DNA of 64,000 nucleotides from Amycolatopsis thermoflava N1165 (GTDB lineage: Bacteria; Actinomycetota; Actinomycetes; Mycobacteriales; Pseudonocardiaceae): NCBI RefSeq assembly GCF_000473265.1, contig NZ_KI421511.1:7209909-7273908 (forward strand). The letters run 5' to 3'. The notes below the pieces were generated by a model. It had not been told where the DNA came from and did no database searches. It saw only the letters and a program-made list of their open reading frames with translations. Shown piece after piece: positions 29,409 to 35,285 of the stretch. Position 1 is the first letter of the stretch. Every line of letters begins with the position of its first letter. The position numbers and the translations under genes are program-made.

Positions 29409-31571
29409 TTACGTGTTTTGCGCCACCGCCTTGGTGGATACGAGCGTGCTGGCCACCGCCGCCAGCGCGATCAGGGCCGTCACGCCGTGCACCGCCATCG
29501 TCACGGGGTCGGCCGCCGACAGCAGTGCCGGAACGCACGCGATGCCCGTGACGATCCACGTGCTGCGCGCGCCGCTGAGCCCTGTCCGCACTGTGTGCAG
29601 GAGGAATACCCCGATCAGCAGCTGGATAAGGTTCTGGATCGGGTCGACGGGCAGCCCCAGGATCGAGCCGTCGTCACCGCCGAACCGGGTCAGCGCGAAC
29701 CCGAACAGCCCGACCACGGCGAACCCGATCCCGAGCATGGTCGCCGCGTGCGCGAGCCAGCCGCCGGAGCCCGGGTGGTCCGCGACCGGGACAGCCGTCT
29801 CCCGCGGGTGGCGCTCGAACCACCAGAAGACCATCAGCGCGGGGACCGCGAGCAGCGCCAGCGCGAACCACGTGCGCGGGTCGCCGAGCCAGCCGAAGAT
29901 CGCCGCCGGGTGGCCCGGCAGGTAGACCAGCGCGACGACGAGCAGCATCGCGGCGAGGAAGCCCAGGTACAGGCTCATGGGCGCGCGCATCGCCAGGCGG
30001 GCGGCGCCGGCGCACCGGGTGGTCAGGCGGGCGAGCGGCTTCGCGGCCAGGCCGAGCAGGCCGATCTGGGTGGCGCCGAGCAGCAGGACCGGCAGGGTGG
30101 GCCCGGACAACGCGGGCGGCGCGCCCGGCGCGCCGAGCAGGTCGCGACTGAGCCCGCCAACCGTGGTGAGCAGGGCGAGACCGGTGGCCCCCGCCGCCGC
30201 GACGCCCACCAGGAGCAGGCGGTTCGACGTGCGGATCCGCCCGAACGCGACCTGCTGGGCGAGCAGGGCCAGGCCGAACGCCGCCAGGTAGCGCGGGATG
30301 GGCGAGCCGAGGGCCCGTGCCGCCATCTCGGCCAGCACGACGAAGGCGAGCAGGCCCGCGACCGAGGCCGCCGCGGCTCGCCGGTGCAGGGCGAGCATCA
30401 GCGGCGTGGCGACCACCGTCAGCAGGTAGATGCCCAGCAGCCACAGCGGGTGCAGGGCGATGCGCATGATCGCGGCGTTCGTGCCCTCGGGGATGCCGAG
30501 CAGTTCGAGCGCGAGCGGGACGAGCAGCGCCACCACGACGAAGATCAGGGCCGGGCGCAGCAGCCAGCTCGCCCGGTGGGCGAGGTACTGGCGGTACCCG
30601 CCGCCGCTGTCCCTGGTGGCGCGCCAGCCCGCCGCGTTGGCGCGGCCGCCGGCGAAGAAGAACACCGGGGCGAGTTGAGCCACCCACGTGAGCGGCCACA
30701 GCCAGTCCGCGCCCACGCCGGCCCACCGGGCCAGCGCGATGGCCGATTCGCCGAGGATCAGCAGCACCAGGCTGCCCACGCCGAGCGTCACCCACGGGGA
30801 CAGCGGCGCCGGCGGGGCCCTGGTGGCCGGTGGCGGGGGCGTGGCGACGCGGGCGTGCCGGTGCTGCAGCCAGCCGCGCAGCCGGAAGATCAACAGGCAC
30901 CCGATCACGGCGACGCCGGCCAGCAGCGGTCCGATCGGGTCGCCGACCGGCGGGCCCCAGCGCTGGTGCCAGGAGTTCACGACGAGCCCGGCGGAGTAGA
31001 GGCTCGCGACGACGCGGCAGGTGCGCGGCGAGTCGACCGGGTTGATGACGCAGGCCGCGTGCATGTCGTCGGACAGGCGCTGGTCCAGCGCCTCGCGGAC
31101 GTCCTGGCCGAGGGGGTGGCCGACCGCGGCCGCGTAGCGGAGGAGGTCGTAGCCGAGGTCGTGCGCCTTGCACGGGACCGCGTAGTCCCACTTCGTGTTG
31201 TCGTCGCCCCACGGGGTCGAGCAGCCGCCGTCGACGTGGACCGCGCGGACCGTGCCGTCCCGCGCCCGCATCTGGCCGGGGACGACGCCGGTGACCTGGG
31301 TGAAGTCGGCAGGCAGGAGGTCGAGCGCGGTCGCCTGCGGGCCGGGGTGGACGAGCGCCTCGATGGCCTGCTGGGCGGCCAGGGCGCCGCCGGTGGGCGG
31401 CCCCGCGTCCGGCGGGGAGGCCGGCCGCGACGCGACGAACCCGAAGGTGACGACGGCCAGCGACAGCACCAGCAGCCAGGCGGAGGTGGCCAGGCGGCGG
31501 CGCACCCGGGGCACCCGTGTGGTGCCCGGCCCGGGTGGCGGGTGGTCGGTGAAGGTCGCTGGGCTGATCAT
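29409..31571 (-). CDS. Prokaryotic phospholipase A2 domain fused to a polytopic acyltransferase-like membrane domain
   Basis: 720 residues. After a basic start and one membrane helix (about 28-47), residues 85-200 form a prokaryotic-type phospholipase A2: CSTPWGDDNTKWDYAVPC (Cys117-Cys134), the catalytic His137-Asp138 pair in KAHDLGYDLLRYA, then Cys174 and Cys185. About 215-640 is a many-helix domain of acyltransferase-3/OpgC character (PWVTLGVGSLVLLILGESAI, APVFFFAGGRANAAGW, HPLWLLGIYLLTVVATPLML, ALLAQQVAFGRIR). The C-terminal helices (DPIQNLIQLLIGVFLLHTVR) resemble DUF4383. The PLA2 part would face outside. It could release acyl chains that the membrane part transfers; no experimental function is known to me. 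Confidence 0.75.
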   Translation of the reverse strand: MISPATFTDHPPPGPGTTRVPRVRRRLATSAWLLVLSLAVVTFGFVASRPASPPDAGPPTGGALAAQQAIEALVHPGPQATALDLLPADFTQVTGVVPGQMRARDGTVRAVHVDGGCSTPWGDDNTKWDYAVPCKAHDLGYDLLRYAAAVGHPLGQDVREALDQRLSDDMHAACVINPVDSPRTCRVVASLYSAGLVVNSWHQRWGPPVGDPIGPLLAGVAVIGCLLIFRLRGWLQHRHARVATPPPPATRAPPAPLSPWVTLGVGSLVLLILGESAIALARWAGVGADWLWPLTWVAQLAPVFFFAGGRANAAGWRATRDSGGGYRQYLAHRASWLLRPALIFVVVALLVPLALELLGIPEGTNAAIMRIALHPLWLLGIYLLTVVATPLMLALHRRAAAASVAGLLAFVVLAEMAARALGSPIPRYLAAFGLALLAQQVAFGRIRTSNRLLLVGVAAAGATGLALLTTVGGLSRDLLGAPGAPPALSGPTLPVLLLGATQIGLLGLAAKPLARLTTRCAGAARLAMRAPMSLYLGFLAAMLLVVALVYLPGHPAAIFGWLGDPRTWFALALLAVPALMVFWWFERHPRETAVPVADHPGSGGWLAHAATMLGIGFAVVGLFGFALTRFGGDDGSILGLPVDPIQNLIQLLIGVFLLHTVRTGLSGARSTWIVTGIACVPALLSAADPVTMAVHGVTALIALAAVASTLVSTKAVAQNT

Positions 31572-32070
31572 CGCCTCCCAGAGTGGCAGGGGAGCGGCCT
31601 CTGCGGCCACCAGGGAATTCCCTGATCGTGGATTCCGGAGTGCGCCACTCTAGTGGGTGAGGGGTCGCAGGTTTAGGAGTCGGGGGGCCGGGGTAAGGCG
31701 AACGCCCTGGTGGGGCGGGTGTGGTCCGGGCGGGGGCCGTTCGGGGCGCGCGAGAGGGCCTTTCGTGGGGTGTGGGTGGGTCAGTCGTGGGTGGGTGAGT
31801 GGGCCGCTCGTGGGGGCGGTGTCCGTCGGGGCGCGTGGAGCGTGGTGGTCGCCGTGGTGCTCGTGTGGCGGCGGAGTGGAGTTTGGCCCGGTGGGTGGAA
31901 TCGCCGTGGCGGCGCGCGCGTGCTCGGGAGTGAGGCGGGGCGTGGATGAGTGGCGCGTCCGGGCGTGGCGGAAAAGGCCGGATGCGGGCGTGTGGGCAAG
32001 TCGGCTCGTATGAGTGGATTCGCGAGCGCGAGTGGAACAGAGGGGCCTCGCCGGGGCGTCCGTCGATCGC
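31572..32070. other. Gene-free region, G/T-rich on the plus strand
   Basis: About 500 bp between the start of the PLA2-fusion gene and the end of the GGDEF gene, both on the minus strand. It holds the palindrome AGGGAATTCCCT near 31613-31624 (possible promoter element of the fusion gene). From about 31650 it becomes a strongly G/T-rich low-complexity stretch (GTGGGTGGGT, GTGGGTGGGTGAGTGGG) without a protein-like frame. Confidence 0.5.
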
Positions 32071-33540
32071 TCAGTGCGTGATGTGCTTGGCTTCGCGCGG
32101 GGGTTGCGGCAGCGGCGCGGAGTCGCGGGCGGCTCGGGCTATCCGGACCTGGTTGCGGCCGCCCTCCTTCGCCTCGTAGACCGCCGCGTCCGCGGCCTGC
32201 ATCAGCGTGGGCAGGGTGTCGCCGTGGTCGGGGAACACCGCGACCCCGATGGAGGCCGTCCGCTCCGACACCAACGTCTGGTCACCGCGCTTGTTGGTCG
32301 TCCTGATCTGCAGCCCGGCCACCGCGGAGCGGATGCGCTCCCCGGCGACCGTGGCCGCCGCCTGGTCCGTGTCCGGCAGCAGCACCAGGAACTCCTCACC
32401 GCCGAAGCGGCCCACCACGTCGCTCGGCCGGGTCACCTCGTCCAGCAGCTGCGCCAGGTTCCGCAGCACGTCGTCGCCGGCCGGGTGGCCGAACGTGTCG
32501 TTGATCCACTTGAAGTGGTCCAGGTCGATCATCAGGATGGCCAGCGGATCGGCCGCCTTCGTCGCCCTGGTCAGGGCCCGCTCGGCCGACTCCGTCCACC
32601 CGCGCATGTTCGCGACCTGCGTCTTCGGGTCGGTCCGCACGTCGGCCTGCAGCTGCTCGATCTCGGCGAGCCGGTTGAAGACCACCGTCACCACGGCCAT
32701 GATCGCGACCGTCGGCGGCATGATCACCAGCAGGATCGCCGTCACTGCGCCGAGGCCGATCGTGATCGCCTCCAGCACGTTGTCCGCCGGGCTGCCCAGC
32801 ACCGTCCGCGCGTTCGCCTTGTCCGGCGCGGCCAGCGCGATCACGGATCCGATGTAGAGGATCTGCACGCCCTCGTAGATGAGCCCGGCCACCAGCATCC
32901 AGCCGAACTCCGTGAGCGAGCCCGCGACGTCCAGCGAACCCCAGTCGTGCGGACCCAGCTCCACGTAGACCTGGTGGGCTAGCGTCGCCGCCAGCATGTG
33001 GGCCACCGTGGAGTACACGAAGTTGTGCGCAGGCCGCCGCGCGACGAACCAGCGCTGTACCCGGACCAGGCCGACGACCAAGATCGTCAACGGCACCGGG
33101 AGAATAATCGCGGCCGGCACGACCCAGACCGCGGTCAGGTCGATCAGGACCCGCCCGCCCGCATTTCGCCGACGTTCTTCCTGCCGCCGGGTCAGTTGAA
33201 TGTGCGCCGTCGCGCCCACCGTGAGAATCGCGAAGCGCAGCCAATCGAGACCGCTCGGCAGGCTCGCGTTCACGAATGCGACGACCAGCCACGCGACCGC
33301 AATCAGTTCGGTGACGAGCAGGAAAACGATGAAACGCTTCGGCCGCCGCCACAATGCCCAATTCTGCGGCAGCATGGCGCGGCGTGTGCTCGATGCATCA
33401 CGCTTTGTGTTCGCCTCCGCCCTCTCGGGCGCGGCTTGGCGGGGTACCGAATTTCGCTCCTCGATGGACTGAATGCCCTCCCTGAGGTCCGGATCGCCGT
33501 GGAGTGTAGGCGATCGCCGACGCGCGTGGTGCGGAGGCAT
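32071..33540 (-). CDS. Membrane-bound diguanylate cyclase (GGDEF)
   Basis: About 489 residues. The N-terminal cytoplasmic part is followed by about six membrane helices (FIVFLLVTELIAVAWLVVAF, WLRFAILTVGATAH, VWVVPAAIILPVPLTILVVG, and others up to VVTVVFNRLAEIEQ). The C-terminal GGDEF domain is complete: RTDPKTQVANMRGW, LAILMIDLDHFKWINDTFGH, DVVGRFGGEEFLVLLPDTD (active site GGEEF), ASIGVAVFPDHGDTLP, AADAAVYEAKEGGRNQV. It should make cyclic di-GMP from GTP in response to a membrane signal. No RxxD inhibitory site is evident. The ATG at 33540 has GGGAAGG 7 nt upstream; an ATG at 33561 is also in frame. Confidence 0.88.
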   Translation of the reverse strand: MPPHHARRRSPTLHGDPDLREGIQSIEERNSVPRQAAPERAEANTKRDASSTRRAMLPQNWALWRRPKRFIVFLLVTELIAVAWLVVAFVNASLPSGLDWLRFAILTVGATAHIQLTRRQEERRRNAGGRVLIDLTAVWVVPAAIILPVPLTILVVGLVRVQRWFVARRPAHNFVYSTVAHMLAATLAHQVYVELGPHDWGSLDVAGSLTEFGWMLVAGLIYEGVQILYIGSVIALAAPDKANARTVLGSPADNVLEAITIGLGAVTAILLVIMPPTVAIMAVVTVVFNRLAEIEQLQADVRTDPKTQVANMRGWTESAERALTRATKAADPLAILMIDLDHFKWINDTFGHPAGDDVLRNLAQLLDEVTRPSDVVGRFGGEEFLVLLPDTDQAAATVAGERIRSAVAGLQIRTTNKRGDQTLVSERTASIGVAVFPDHGDTLPTLMQAADAAVYEAKEGGRNQVRIARAARDSAPLPQPPREAKHITH

Positions 33541-33724
33541 CGGCTCACCTTCCCTCGACATCGCGTACCGCCGCCGGGTAACTTTGCTGTGCCCGGAACG
33601 ACGCCGGGTACTTTCCATCAACAGGTATCATCTCACCGCACGCGAAGCGTCGCGTACCGCCGCCACGAGCGGCCGCGCGGACGCAACGCGTCCCGGCCAC
33701 AGGCACCGAATGGAGGTGTTCCTC

Positions 33725-33745
33725 GTGTCTGACCGCGACTTCTGA
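33725..33745 (+). CDS. Micro-ORF 1: M-S-D-R-D-F
   Basis: GTG TCT GAC CGC GAC TTC TGA: six codons plus stop. GGAGG (33713-33717) lies 7 nt before the GTG. An in-frame ATG at 33710 would give MEVFLVSDRDF. This is the first of three near-identical units, each exactly 73 bp from the next, in the gap between a GGDEF gene and a convergent MFS gene. The peptide is far too short for ordinary gene finders. Reality as a translated gene is inferred from the repeated ribosome site, start, sequence and stop. Confidence 0.5.
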   Translation: MSDRDF

Positions 33746-33797
33746 TCCCCTGGCCTGAATAGCGTTCGTTTTCGTTCCCGCGGGAGAGGTGTTCGTC

Positions 33798-33818
33798 GTG
33801 CGCGACCGCGACTTCTGA
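33798..33818 (+). CDS. Micro-ORF 2: M-R-D-R-D-F
   Basis: GTG CGC GAC CGC GAC TTC TGA, start exactly 73 bp after micro-ORF 1. AGAGG lies 8 nt before the GTG. The preceding codons in frame read GEVFVV, matching EVFLV in front of unit 1. The intervening 52 bp are only partly similar to the next spacer (a CGTT/TTTCG-rich stretch recurs), so selection seems to be on the short coding block and its ribosome site. Confidence 0.5.
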   Translation: MRDRDF

Positions 33819-33870
33819 GGTGCCCTCGATTTGTGTTTGTTTCCGACCGAATAACGTGAGGTGAATCGTC

Positions 33871-33891
33871 GTGCGCGACCGTGACTTCTGA
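33871..33891 (+). CDS. Micro-ORF 3: M-R-D-R-D-F
   Basis: GTG CGC GAC CGT GAC TTC TGA, again 73 bp after unit 2. It encodes the same peptide as unit 2 with a synonymous CGC-to-CGT change. GAGG (33858-33861) lies 9 nt before the GTG. An in-frame TGA at 33862-33864 blocks any longer N-terminus, so in this copy translation can only begin at or just before the GTG. It ends 27 bp before the stop of the convergent MFS gene. Confidence 0.5.
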   Translation: MRDRDF

Positions 33892-33917: not shown

Positions 33918-35135
33918 TCAGCCGGTGCGGGCCGCATCGCTGTCCGTGCCAAGCACCCGGCCCCACGCCACCGCGAGGGGTACGCCGAGGACCACTCCGG
34001 CCGCGCCCGCGATCATGATGGCCGTGGTCGCCGCGCCGGACCACTGCGCGAGCATGCCGCCGAACGCGACCCCGACGCCCTGCGCGACCCGCAGGCCGGT
34101 CCGGTACAGCCCGCCGGCGCCACCGCGAAGCTCGTTGGGCACCCACGTGATGAACGTGGCCCCGACGGTGATGATGTACGCGCCCGCCGCGCCGGCCAGT
34201 GCGAGGACGACGAGGGCGAGCACCAGGTCCGGGCGCAGCCCGAACGCGAGCAGCAGTGCCGTCGGCACGACCGCGAGCACGCCGACCGTGCGGCGGCGGG
34301 CCGAGGCCGAGACGTAGCGGGACAGGACGAACACGCCCAGCGCGAACCCCAGCGGGTCCGCGGCCAGCAGCCACCCCACGGCCTGGTCGGGCGCGCCGAT
34401 TTCGCGCGCCAGCGGGGCGGCCAGGCCTGCCGGCACCATGGCCAGCCCGACCAGCCAGGACAGGCCGAGCAGCACGCGCAGCCTGCGCTGCGAGGCGACC
34501 CAGTTGATGGCGCCGAACCAGGAGCCGTCGCCGTCGCCCGCGGCGGGGCGCGGGCGCACCCAGTGGTGCAGGGCCACCGCGCTGATCGCGAACGTCAGCG
34601 CGTCCAGGGCCAGCGCCAGCGACGGGCCCGCGGCGGTGACGATCACGCCGCCCAGCGCGAGCCCGGCCAGCATCGTGGTGTTCGTGGTGATGCCGCGGAT
34701 GTCCTGGCTGCGCAGGTACAGCTCGTCGTCGGTGAAGATCTCGCGGGTCAGCGCGTTCTGCGCCGCGTTGGACGGCGCGCCCGCCAGCCGCGCGAGCATG
34801 ACCAGCACGCACAACCACACCACCGGCATGCCCGGCACGGCCATGATCGCGATGAAGAACGCCTGCAGCGCGGCGGTGACCACGAGGATCGTGCGGCGCG
34901 GGTAGCGGTCGGCCAGCTGGGCCAGCCCGAGCCCGCCGGCCAGCGCGGGCAGGAACGTCAGGGCGTAGGCGACCGCGGACCACAGCGCCGAGCCGGTGCG
35001 GTGGTAGACGGTGAGGGCCAGCGCGACCGTGGTCAGCTGGTCACCGAGCACCGACTGGGCCTCGGCCAGCCACACGGTGCGGAACTCGCGGTTGGCGAGC
35101 GCCGCACCCATGGATGGGCGAGTCGTGGTCTTCAC
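33918..35135 (-). CDS. MFS exporter (MFS_3 / EntS-like)
   Basis: 405 residues, 12 predicted helices: FRTVWLAEAQSVLGDQLTTV, YALTFLPALAGGLGLAQLAD, RYPRRTILVVTAALQAFFIA, RLAGAPSNAAQNALTREIFT, LYLRSQDIRGITTNTTMLAG. This layout (starting ANREFRTVW and with the VGDQLTTVALALTVY helix) is typical of EntS-like and macrolide-type exporters. The GTG at 35135 has GGGGAG 4 nt upstream. It is convergent with the micro-ORF triplet, so export of those peptides is conceivable but unsupported. A long 413-bp upstream region holds a clean inverted repeat. Confidence 0.82.
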   Translation of the reverse strand: MKTTTRPSMGAALANREFRTVWLAEAQSVLGDQLTTVALALTVYHRTGSALWSAVAYALTFLPALAGGLGLAQLADRYPRRTILVVTAALQAFFIAIMAVPGMPVVWLCVLVMLARLAGAPSNAAQNALTREIFTDDELYLRSQDIRGITTNTTMLAGLALGGVIVTAAGPSLALALDALTFAISAVALHHWVRPRPAAGDGDGSWFGAINWVASQRRLRVLLGLSWLVGLAMVPAGLAAPLAREIGAPDQAVGWLLAADPLGFALGVFVLSRYVSASARRRTVGVLAVVPTALLLAFGLRPDLVLALVVLALAGAAGAYIITVGATFITWVPNELRGGAGGLYRTGLRVAQGVGVAFGGMLAQWSGAATTAIMIAGAAGVVLGVPLAVAWGRVLGTDSDAARTG

Positions 35136-35285
35136 ACCTCTCCCCACTTCCCCCTCGTCGGCTGGTTGCCTGCGCTCACTGACTCTGTCGCTGCGCGCCC
35201 GGTTCCTGTGACGCCGATCACCCGAATGACACATTCCGCAACTATCAGTATGCCGCTCACTACACGCAGGCGAACAGTCACAGCG

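Follow-up and report, generated by a model that had tools for sequence, protein, structure and literature searches.

Tandem micro-ORFs beside a divergent membrane diguanylate cyclase gene in Amycolatopsis thermoflava and other Pseudonocardiaceae, a candidate peptide signalling module

The micro-ORF locus of A. thermoflava

Three micro-ORFs of six codons each lie in tandem in the window, by which we mean the whole stretch of 64,000 nucleotides of A. thermoflava N1165 that was analysed, between a divergent gene for a membrane protein with a GGDEF domain and a convergent gene of the MFS transporter family (Table 1). The first-pass annotation had described three GTG starts at a spacing of exactly 73 bp, with the products VSDRDF, VRDRDF and VRDRDF all ended by TGA, and our reading agrees with it on each of these points. 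The purine-rich ribosome sites (about 7 nt before each of the three GTGs) were found again as well, together with the synonymous CGC-to-CGT change in copy 3 and the in-frame TGA just upstream of its start. Concerning the neighbours, the convergent MFS gene noted at that time is indeed present, but the divergent membrane GGDEF gene, present at 20 of 20 loci picked by the micro-ORF pattern, had been missed.

Table 1. Features of the micro-ORF locus, with positions counted in the window
Feature	Position	Strand	Basis
Membrane diguanylate cyclase, GGEEF motif, proposed peptide sensor	32071..33540	-	Pfam GGDEF E 5.3e-45
GGDEF catalytic domain of the cyclase	32149..32634	-	
N-terminal multi-helix membrane domain of the cyclase	32638..33366	-	predicted; AlphaFold model all-helical
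Conserved GGTATCATCTCACCGC, candidate promoter (-10) or regulator site for transcription of the array	33624..33639	+	inferred
GGAGGT, ribosome site of micro-ORF 1	33712..33717	+	sequence
Micro-ORF 1, GTG-Ser-Asp-Arg-Asp-Phe-TGA	33725..33745	+	identical in 9/9 DRDF-type genus genomes
AGAGGT, ribosome site of micro-ORF 2	33785..33790	+	sequence
Micro-ORF 2, GTG-Arg-Asp-Arg-Asp-Phe-TGA	33798..33818	+	synonymous change only, 9 genomes
GAGGTG, ribosome site of micro-ORF 3	33858..33863	+	sequence; overlaps in-frame TGA 33862-33864
Micro-ORF 3, GTG-Arg-Asp-Arg-Asp-Phe-TGA	33871..33891	+	synonymous change only, 9 genomes
MFS transporter, EntS-like, proposed exporter	33918..35234	-	PF07690/PF05977; convergent with the array

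The GTG-started pattern has three matches in the 8.7-Mb genome, all at the array, and the reversed pattern has none. When ATG was also permitted, one additional isolated match appeared in this genome (L090), which we judged to be due to chance because it contains a CGG codon and no such cyclase gene lies within its 16 kb. RNA folding of the window array revealed nothing unusual (z 0.45), and Rfam returned tRNAs only, one in the window and a single one among six further loci.

Transcription of the array may start from the conserved GGTATCAT site. In 111 of 143 loci the motif GSTAYSAT lies no more than 220 nt ahead of the first copy, against 0 occurrences in the reversed control. On the minus strand, positions 33545-33631 hold a 28-codon ORF (MIPVDGKYPASFRAQQSYPAAVRDVEGR) terminating within the ribosome site of the proposed receptor gene; from this ORF up to 33640 the sequence hardly varies among 9 genomes, and the stretch carries the repeats GCCGGGTAACTTT / GCCGGGTACTTT and is a candidate leader ORF, operator or promoter.

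The divergent gene, whose start codon at 33540 was chosen by us, codes for a protein that is predicted to be an active diguanylate cyclase on the basis of its intact GGEEF domain. The same motif is intact in all 31 aligned receptors, themselves partly picked by such a motif, and one Trp is invariant among these 31 (TAVW in the window, TSVW in the consensus). The AlphaFold model of the N-terminal domain, calculated on a receptor sequence with one additional residue ahead of Met, is all-helical with pLDDT mostly 85 or more. This domain has no Pfam match above the cut-off and no PDB sequence match, and in a structure comparison with the cyclase model the match list was filled by GGDEF domains.

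Conservation of the micro-ORFs in the genus and the family

Micro-ORFs occupy the same locus in 19/19 genomes of the genus. Exactly three DRDF copies are present in nine of them, the window's own genome counted, while the ten genomes without DRDF carry other versions, namely four to six copies of x-NRDF (eight genomes), four copies of x-SRDF (one) or four copies of RDREA (one). By aligning the nine DRDF-form genomes, we found that first and second codon positions vary at 0/30 sites, third positions at 2/15, start and stop codons at 0/18 and ribosome sites at 4/36, against 40 of 84 positions in the spacers.

At the level of the family, the ATG-or-GTG pattern matched in 32 of 390 genomes and the reversed pattern in none. 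Nineteen of these places, together with the isolated ATG match and the window, made a set of 21 loci picked by the micro-ORF pattern, and in 20 of them, all but the isolated ATG match, the micro-ORFs and one orthologous GGDEF gene are immediate divergent neighbours. A search with the receptor N-domain reached 266 of the 390 genomes at E<=1e-20, distant relatives among them; it gave 147 places down to E 5e-37, of which 146 (145 genomes) were examined and one, G335, was left out. At least one micro-ORF of the family was found at 143 of these 146 receptor loci, with 1 to 11 copies each, and at least two at 124. As the 146 regions were selected via the receptor, its presence is tested only by the 20 pattern-picked loci. 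The three loci without a family micro-ORF are two loci of G201 and that of G058 (L233). The latter carries MSDRDRDA, and there, as in MQNQGWNQGW at L317, the core is doubled within one ORF.

Several controls were performed on these regions. Among the ribosome-site-led ORFs of 5-6 codons at the 146 receptor loci, 422 of 434 fit the family, defined, after the data had been seen, by R at -3 and D, E or A at -2; the corresponding values are 0/9 for the reverse complement, 1/31 for reversed and 0/32 for complemented readings. A pair of copies within 130 nt is present at 120/146 loci and in 0/730 shuffles (blocks of two bases). Multi-copy arrays were absent elsewhere in 578 kb of neighbourhoods, in the 64-kb window and in 172 kb of viral contigs, and no array accompanies any of the 8 remaining GGDEF domains in the genome of the window within 1.5 kb each side, a span that may miss some gene starts. 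To see whether the module extends beyond the order, 246 genomes of the phylum were searched with a profile, which gave 10 at E<=1e-8 (own included), L331-L339 (foreign) and L340 (own) being without repeated micro-ORF; in Nonomuraea gerenzanensis there is a single candidate, VRGVTWT.

CRISPR or other repeats were considered as a source of such patterns and rejected. A tandem pattern scan of genome contigs yielded 36 stretches, 11 actinobacterial, 24 alphaproteobacterial and 1 from Eubacteriales. The actinobacterial ones belong to named Pseudonocardiaceae genera and one MAG, and of the 25 others five were read, four being CRISPR-like repeats with a 66-bp period and one another repeat.

The 73-bp spacing is exact in the window, but across the 146 loci copies are mostly 65-80 bp and up to 250 bp apart. 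The spacing modulo 3 is distributed as 99/90/86, and every copy is therefore a separate ORF. In order to quantify selection, we compared 271 pairs of neighbours separated by 30-130 nt, unfiltered for similarity and amounting to 1084 codons, and counted 273 synonymous and 25 nonsynonymous codon differences where about 20% synonymous would be expected; this unfiltered count is quoted in place of an earlier codon test that took copies selected for similarity. More specifically, differing bases at codon positions 1, 2 and 3 of the same pairs number 35, 34 and 280. In 308 pairs chosen by similarity, identity is 0.88 in the ORF, 0.31 in the 20 nt after the stop and 0.30 in the stretch from -40 to -20. 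The idea that this is a multi-copy micro-peptide locus overlooked by gene finders is borne out in this way: relatives keep frame, start, stop, ribosome site and peptide while the spacers drift, the opposite of a nucleotide repeat in which frame is not conserved. Conservation shows the micro-ORFs to be independent translation units, and their products are almost certainly functional peptides. Of the 624 Arg codons in the micro-ORFs, 333 are CGT, compared with 9 of 237 in six genes of the window.

Conservation is concentrated at the end of the peptide. Between adjacent copies (256 pairs), position 2 differs in 132 pairs and positions 3, 4, 5 and 6 in 1, 0, 0 and 6, the two zeros at positions 4 and 5 resulting from the family definition, which fixes these positions. 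With position 2 free and positions 3-6 nearly fixed, the C-terminal tetrapeptide is the unit, and conservation shows these four residues to be the functional part. The core at the main locus is [DNSGAE]-R-[DEA]-x, and it takes 21 versions between loci or lineages. In contrast, within the multi-copy arrays a single tetrapeptide is used in 117 of 124, yet the core codons are nucleotide-identical in just 14 of 124, so that recent copying does not explain the uniformity; start codons, too, differ within 64 of the 124.

The copies can also be followed individually between species. By aligning the 50 nt upstream of each copy in nine DRDF and seven of eight NRDF genus genomes (the six-copy one left out), we found that DRDF copies 1, 2 and 3 are the positional orthologues of NRDF copies 1, 3 and 4, with mean alignment scores of 17.5, 19.0 and 17.2 against 4.2-7.6 for all other pairings. 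All three copies therefore made the change between D and N in step, with their spacers staying distinct. Conversion confined to the ORF itself could in principle have produced this in-step change, but nucleotide-identical core codons are limited to the 14 arrays mentioned above.

Receptors, transporters and related modules

In the receptor tree, peptide type tracks receptor clade and not genus. G002, from the window's own genus, clusters with the DREA receptors of another genus (SH-aLRT 99), and G014 is a less sure case across genera (88), in a quick tree of 90 out of 138 sequences after thinning, in which branches are long and the outgroup was not recovered as one group. Linkage by itself would make peptide and receptor histories agree, so that this tree says little about binding. 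When receptor residues covarying with the peptide were sought, there were 2-4 independent changes to draw on, and the search had no power.

An MFS homologue was detected by tblastn in 134/146 main loci. Ten of the 11 loci without MFS have 0-1 copies, compared with 12 of the 135 with it (G107 being counted with MFS by its neighbourhood), an association with Fisher p 7e-9 in which phylogeny is not corrected for. One MFS family recurs in 18 of 21 neighbourhoods that were selected by receptor and not by MFS, other families included; the gene is inverted at L349, L350 and L359, is found beyond the receptor gene at L360 and is lacking at L341, L346 and L357. At L346, whose receptor is accompanied by five copies of RGWHWTR, DUF885 and S49 peptidase genes stand at the usual place of the MFS gene, and processing or breakdown of the putative signal by a peptidase is conceivable. 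At a few loci, for example L075, L350 and L357, the array is followed by a same-strand gene. Beyond the cyclase gene of the window, a large protein is encoded at 29409-31610 on the minus strand, with a prokaryotic phospholipase A2 match at the cut-off score and a long hydrophobic remainder, and its relatives occur near the array in 14/21 neighbourhoods.

The module recurs, with different peptides, both in other families and next to related cyclases in the same genome. Divergent arrays next to related or distant receptors encode (R)SRDW (15-16 copies), TVVNWS (7), NWSW-type peptides (5), RGWHWT(R/K) (5) and RNRES (5), and further arrays of this kind encode RNRAW (4), SNHGW (3), LxNW(R/N)WP (2-3) and QGWSF (3). 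Forty further receptor stretches, which include places met before and others truncated where a contig stops, were sorted by our own judgement into 16 with at least two near-identical copies, 14 with a single candidate and 10 with none convincing. In G128, G154 and G389, every related-cyclase locus that shows a candidate uses a code of its own, and at L342 the whole module is present twice in a row. On plasmid p1 of Pseudonocardia sp. DSM 110487 (L361, NZ_CP080522.1, about 65.8-66.9 kb), three MRNHNW ORFs lie beside a GGDEF gene, in a gap without listed genes and with no adjacent MFS gene. A DUF6545 gene and helix-turn-helix genes are close to this MRNHNW array.

Interpretation, alternatives and known systems

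Taken together, we consider it somewhat probable that the locus produces a leaderless micropeptide signal which the divergent cyclase senses and for which the MFS protein is the probable exporter. Each micro-ORF would be a separately translated gene giving a leaderless hexapeptide, fMet-x-Asp-Arg-Asp-Phe; several copies, probably carried on one transcript starting near 33635, would raise output. The peptide may be the private ligand of the adjacent cyclase and, when bound by the multi-helix N-domain, would act as a switch of c-di-GMP synthesis. With the MFS protein as likely exporter, the peptide would thus be a cell-cell or self-monitoring signal. Lineages and related cyclases use distinct tetrapeptide codes, the copies within an array changing together.

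Peptides acting inside the producer, on the cyclase or a membrane partner, would need no export and could be tiny regulatory subunits that report translation or the array promoter. The missing leader or signal sequence, the loci lacking MFS and the position of the cyclase as adjacent divergent gene at the 20 pattern-picked loci are all consistent with this, but we hold it to be unlikely, given that the MFS recurs in the neighbourhoods, those of other families too, and that a code changing from species to species fits a communication signal better.

It is quite improbable that the peptide is an exported effector, such as a tiny antimicrobial, a metal-binding peptide or a signal aimed at other organisms, with the cyclase only controlling production and the MFS exporting it. 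Such an effector would agree with the EntS-like family of the exporter and with the multiple copies, strong ribosome sites and many CGT codons, but it would not need the locus-specific codes of G128, G154 and G389, nor a peptide code that shifts with cyclase lineage.

The first-pass annotation had also hinted at RiPP precursors of the biarylitide kind, that is, five- to six-codon genes with a product that is cross-linked or otherwise modified. Biarylitide precursors are 18-bp genes that can be multi-copy (PMC13417212), and W, H or Y occur in several of the codes. This hint finds no support: the adjoining genes are the cyclase and the MFS, no modifying enzyme was identified among the recurring neighbours (most single neighbours being outside the Pfam scan), and Phe is the single aromatic residue of the main code, DRDF, which makes the RiPP origin very doubtful.

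A cis-acting translation device, either stalling or drop-off mini-genes or a translation-sensing leader, would account for the extreme shortness of the ORFs, for their strong ribosome sites and for the few same-strand genes following an array, but it is scarcely credible, as in the window and at most loci the next gene is on the opposite strand, the last sense codon and the code vary widely while copies within an array agree, and neither the fold nor Rfam singled out the window array. Chance, a DNA repeat or gene conversion with no coding meaning can be practically dismissed, since a tandem repeat does exist but changes fall on third codon positions, the spacers are unrelated and start codons differ inside arrays.

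Genes of about 20 bp escape annotation, yet strong selection on the peptide has preserved this one throughout a bacterial family. Pseudonocardiaceae are known for antibiotic producers, and c-di-GMP controls actinomycete development. If the peptide is truly a signal, orphan membrane diguanylate cyclases would gain a testable ligand, peptide signalling would be tied to c-di-GMP, and one code per receptor would offer a simple genomic key to many further pairs. Synthetic hexapeptides provide a cheap test of the signalling idea.

The window protein resembles membrane-bound diguanylate cyclases, in which unclassified or MASE-type N-domains occur, in its order of domains, with a helical membrane N-domain preceding a canonical GGEEF domain; it differs in that its N-domain is without Pfam match above the cut-off or PDB sequence match, and in its genetic linkage to micro-ORF arrays. 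No paper describing a module of micro-ORFs and cyclase was found in the open PMC literature, judged by titles and abstract starts. To our knowledge, no known kind unites tandem micro-ORFs with a diguanylate cyclase. Whether it represents a new class of signalling module seems to us evenly balanced; such a class would comprise tandem mini-genes (5-10 codons), a leaderless linear micropeptide with a private code of the last ~4 residues, a dedicated membrane diguanylate cyclase and an MFS exporter, with several channels per actinomycete genome, through which peptide signalling would feed c-di-GMP directly.

Among peptide systems, biarylitide precursors (bytA) are described as the smallest known RiPP genes, five-codon, missed by annotation and sometimes in several copies (PMC13417212). 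The micro-ORFs are equally small, missed by annotation and multi-copy, but biarylitides need a cross-linking P450 and aromatic residues, neither of which was found as a feature of this locus. No cross-linking cytochrome P450 adjoins the window array, where the two flanking genes are GGDEF and MFS, and DRDF, NRDF, SRDF, GRDF and DREA have at most one aromatic residue, some other-family codes having two W.

The LCP or SIP-RopB systems of Streptococcus pyogenes and Firmicute relatives rely on an ultrasmall ORF that lacks both leader and processing sequence and that, in the cases described, is divergent from the receptor gene, with distinct codes in related species and, in one case, a putative ABC transporter convergent downstream (PMC10518010). 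Likewise, the ORFs studied here, of 5-10 codons, have their own ribosome site and no room for a leader, and the array is divergent from the GGDEF gene, the putative receptor, at 20/20 pattern-picked loci. In contrast, the LCP partner is a cytosolic regulator of the RopB clan whereas here it would be a membrane diguanylate cyclase, and the LCP peptide is hydrophobic, aliphatic and aromatic, whereas that of our main locus is hydrophilic; here also, the peptides have 5-10 residues, the ORFs are repeated up to 16 times and the hosts are actinomycetes. Membership in LCP/SIP fails because receptor class and peptide chemistry differ. The module may work like these Firmicute systems, which appear to be functionally the nearest, and, counting the signalling principle alone, it would be a variant of leaderless peptide signalling.
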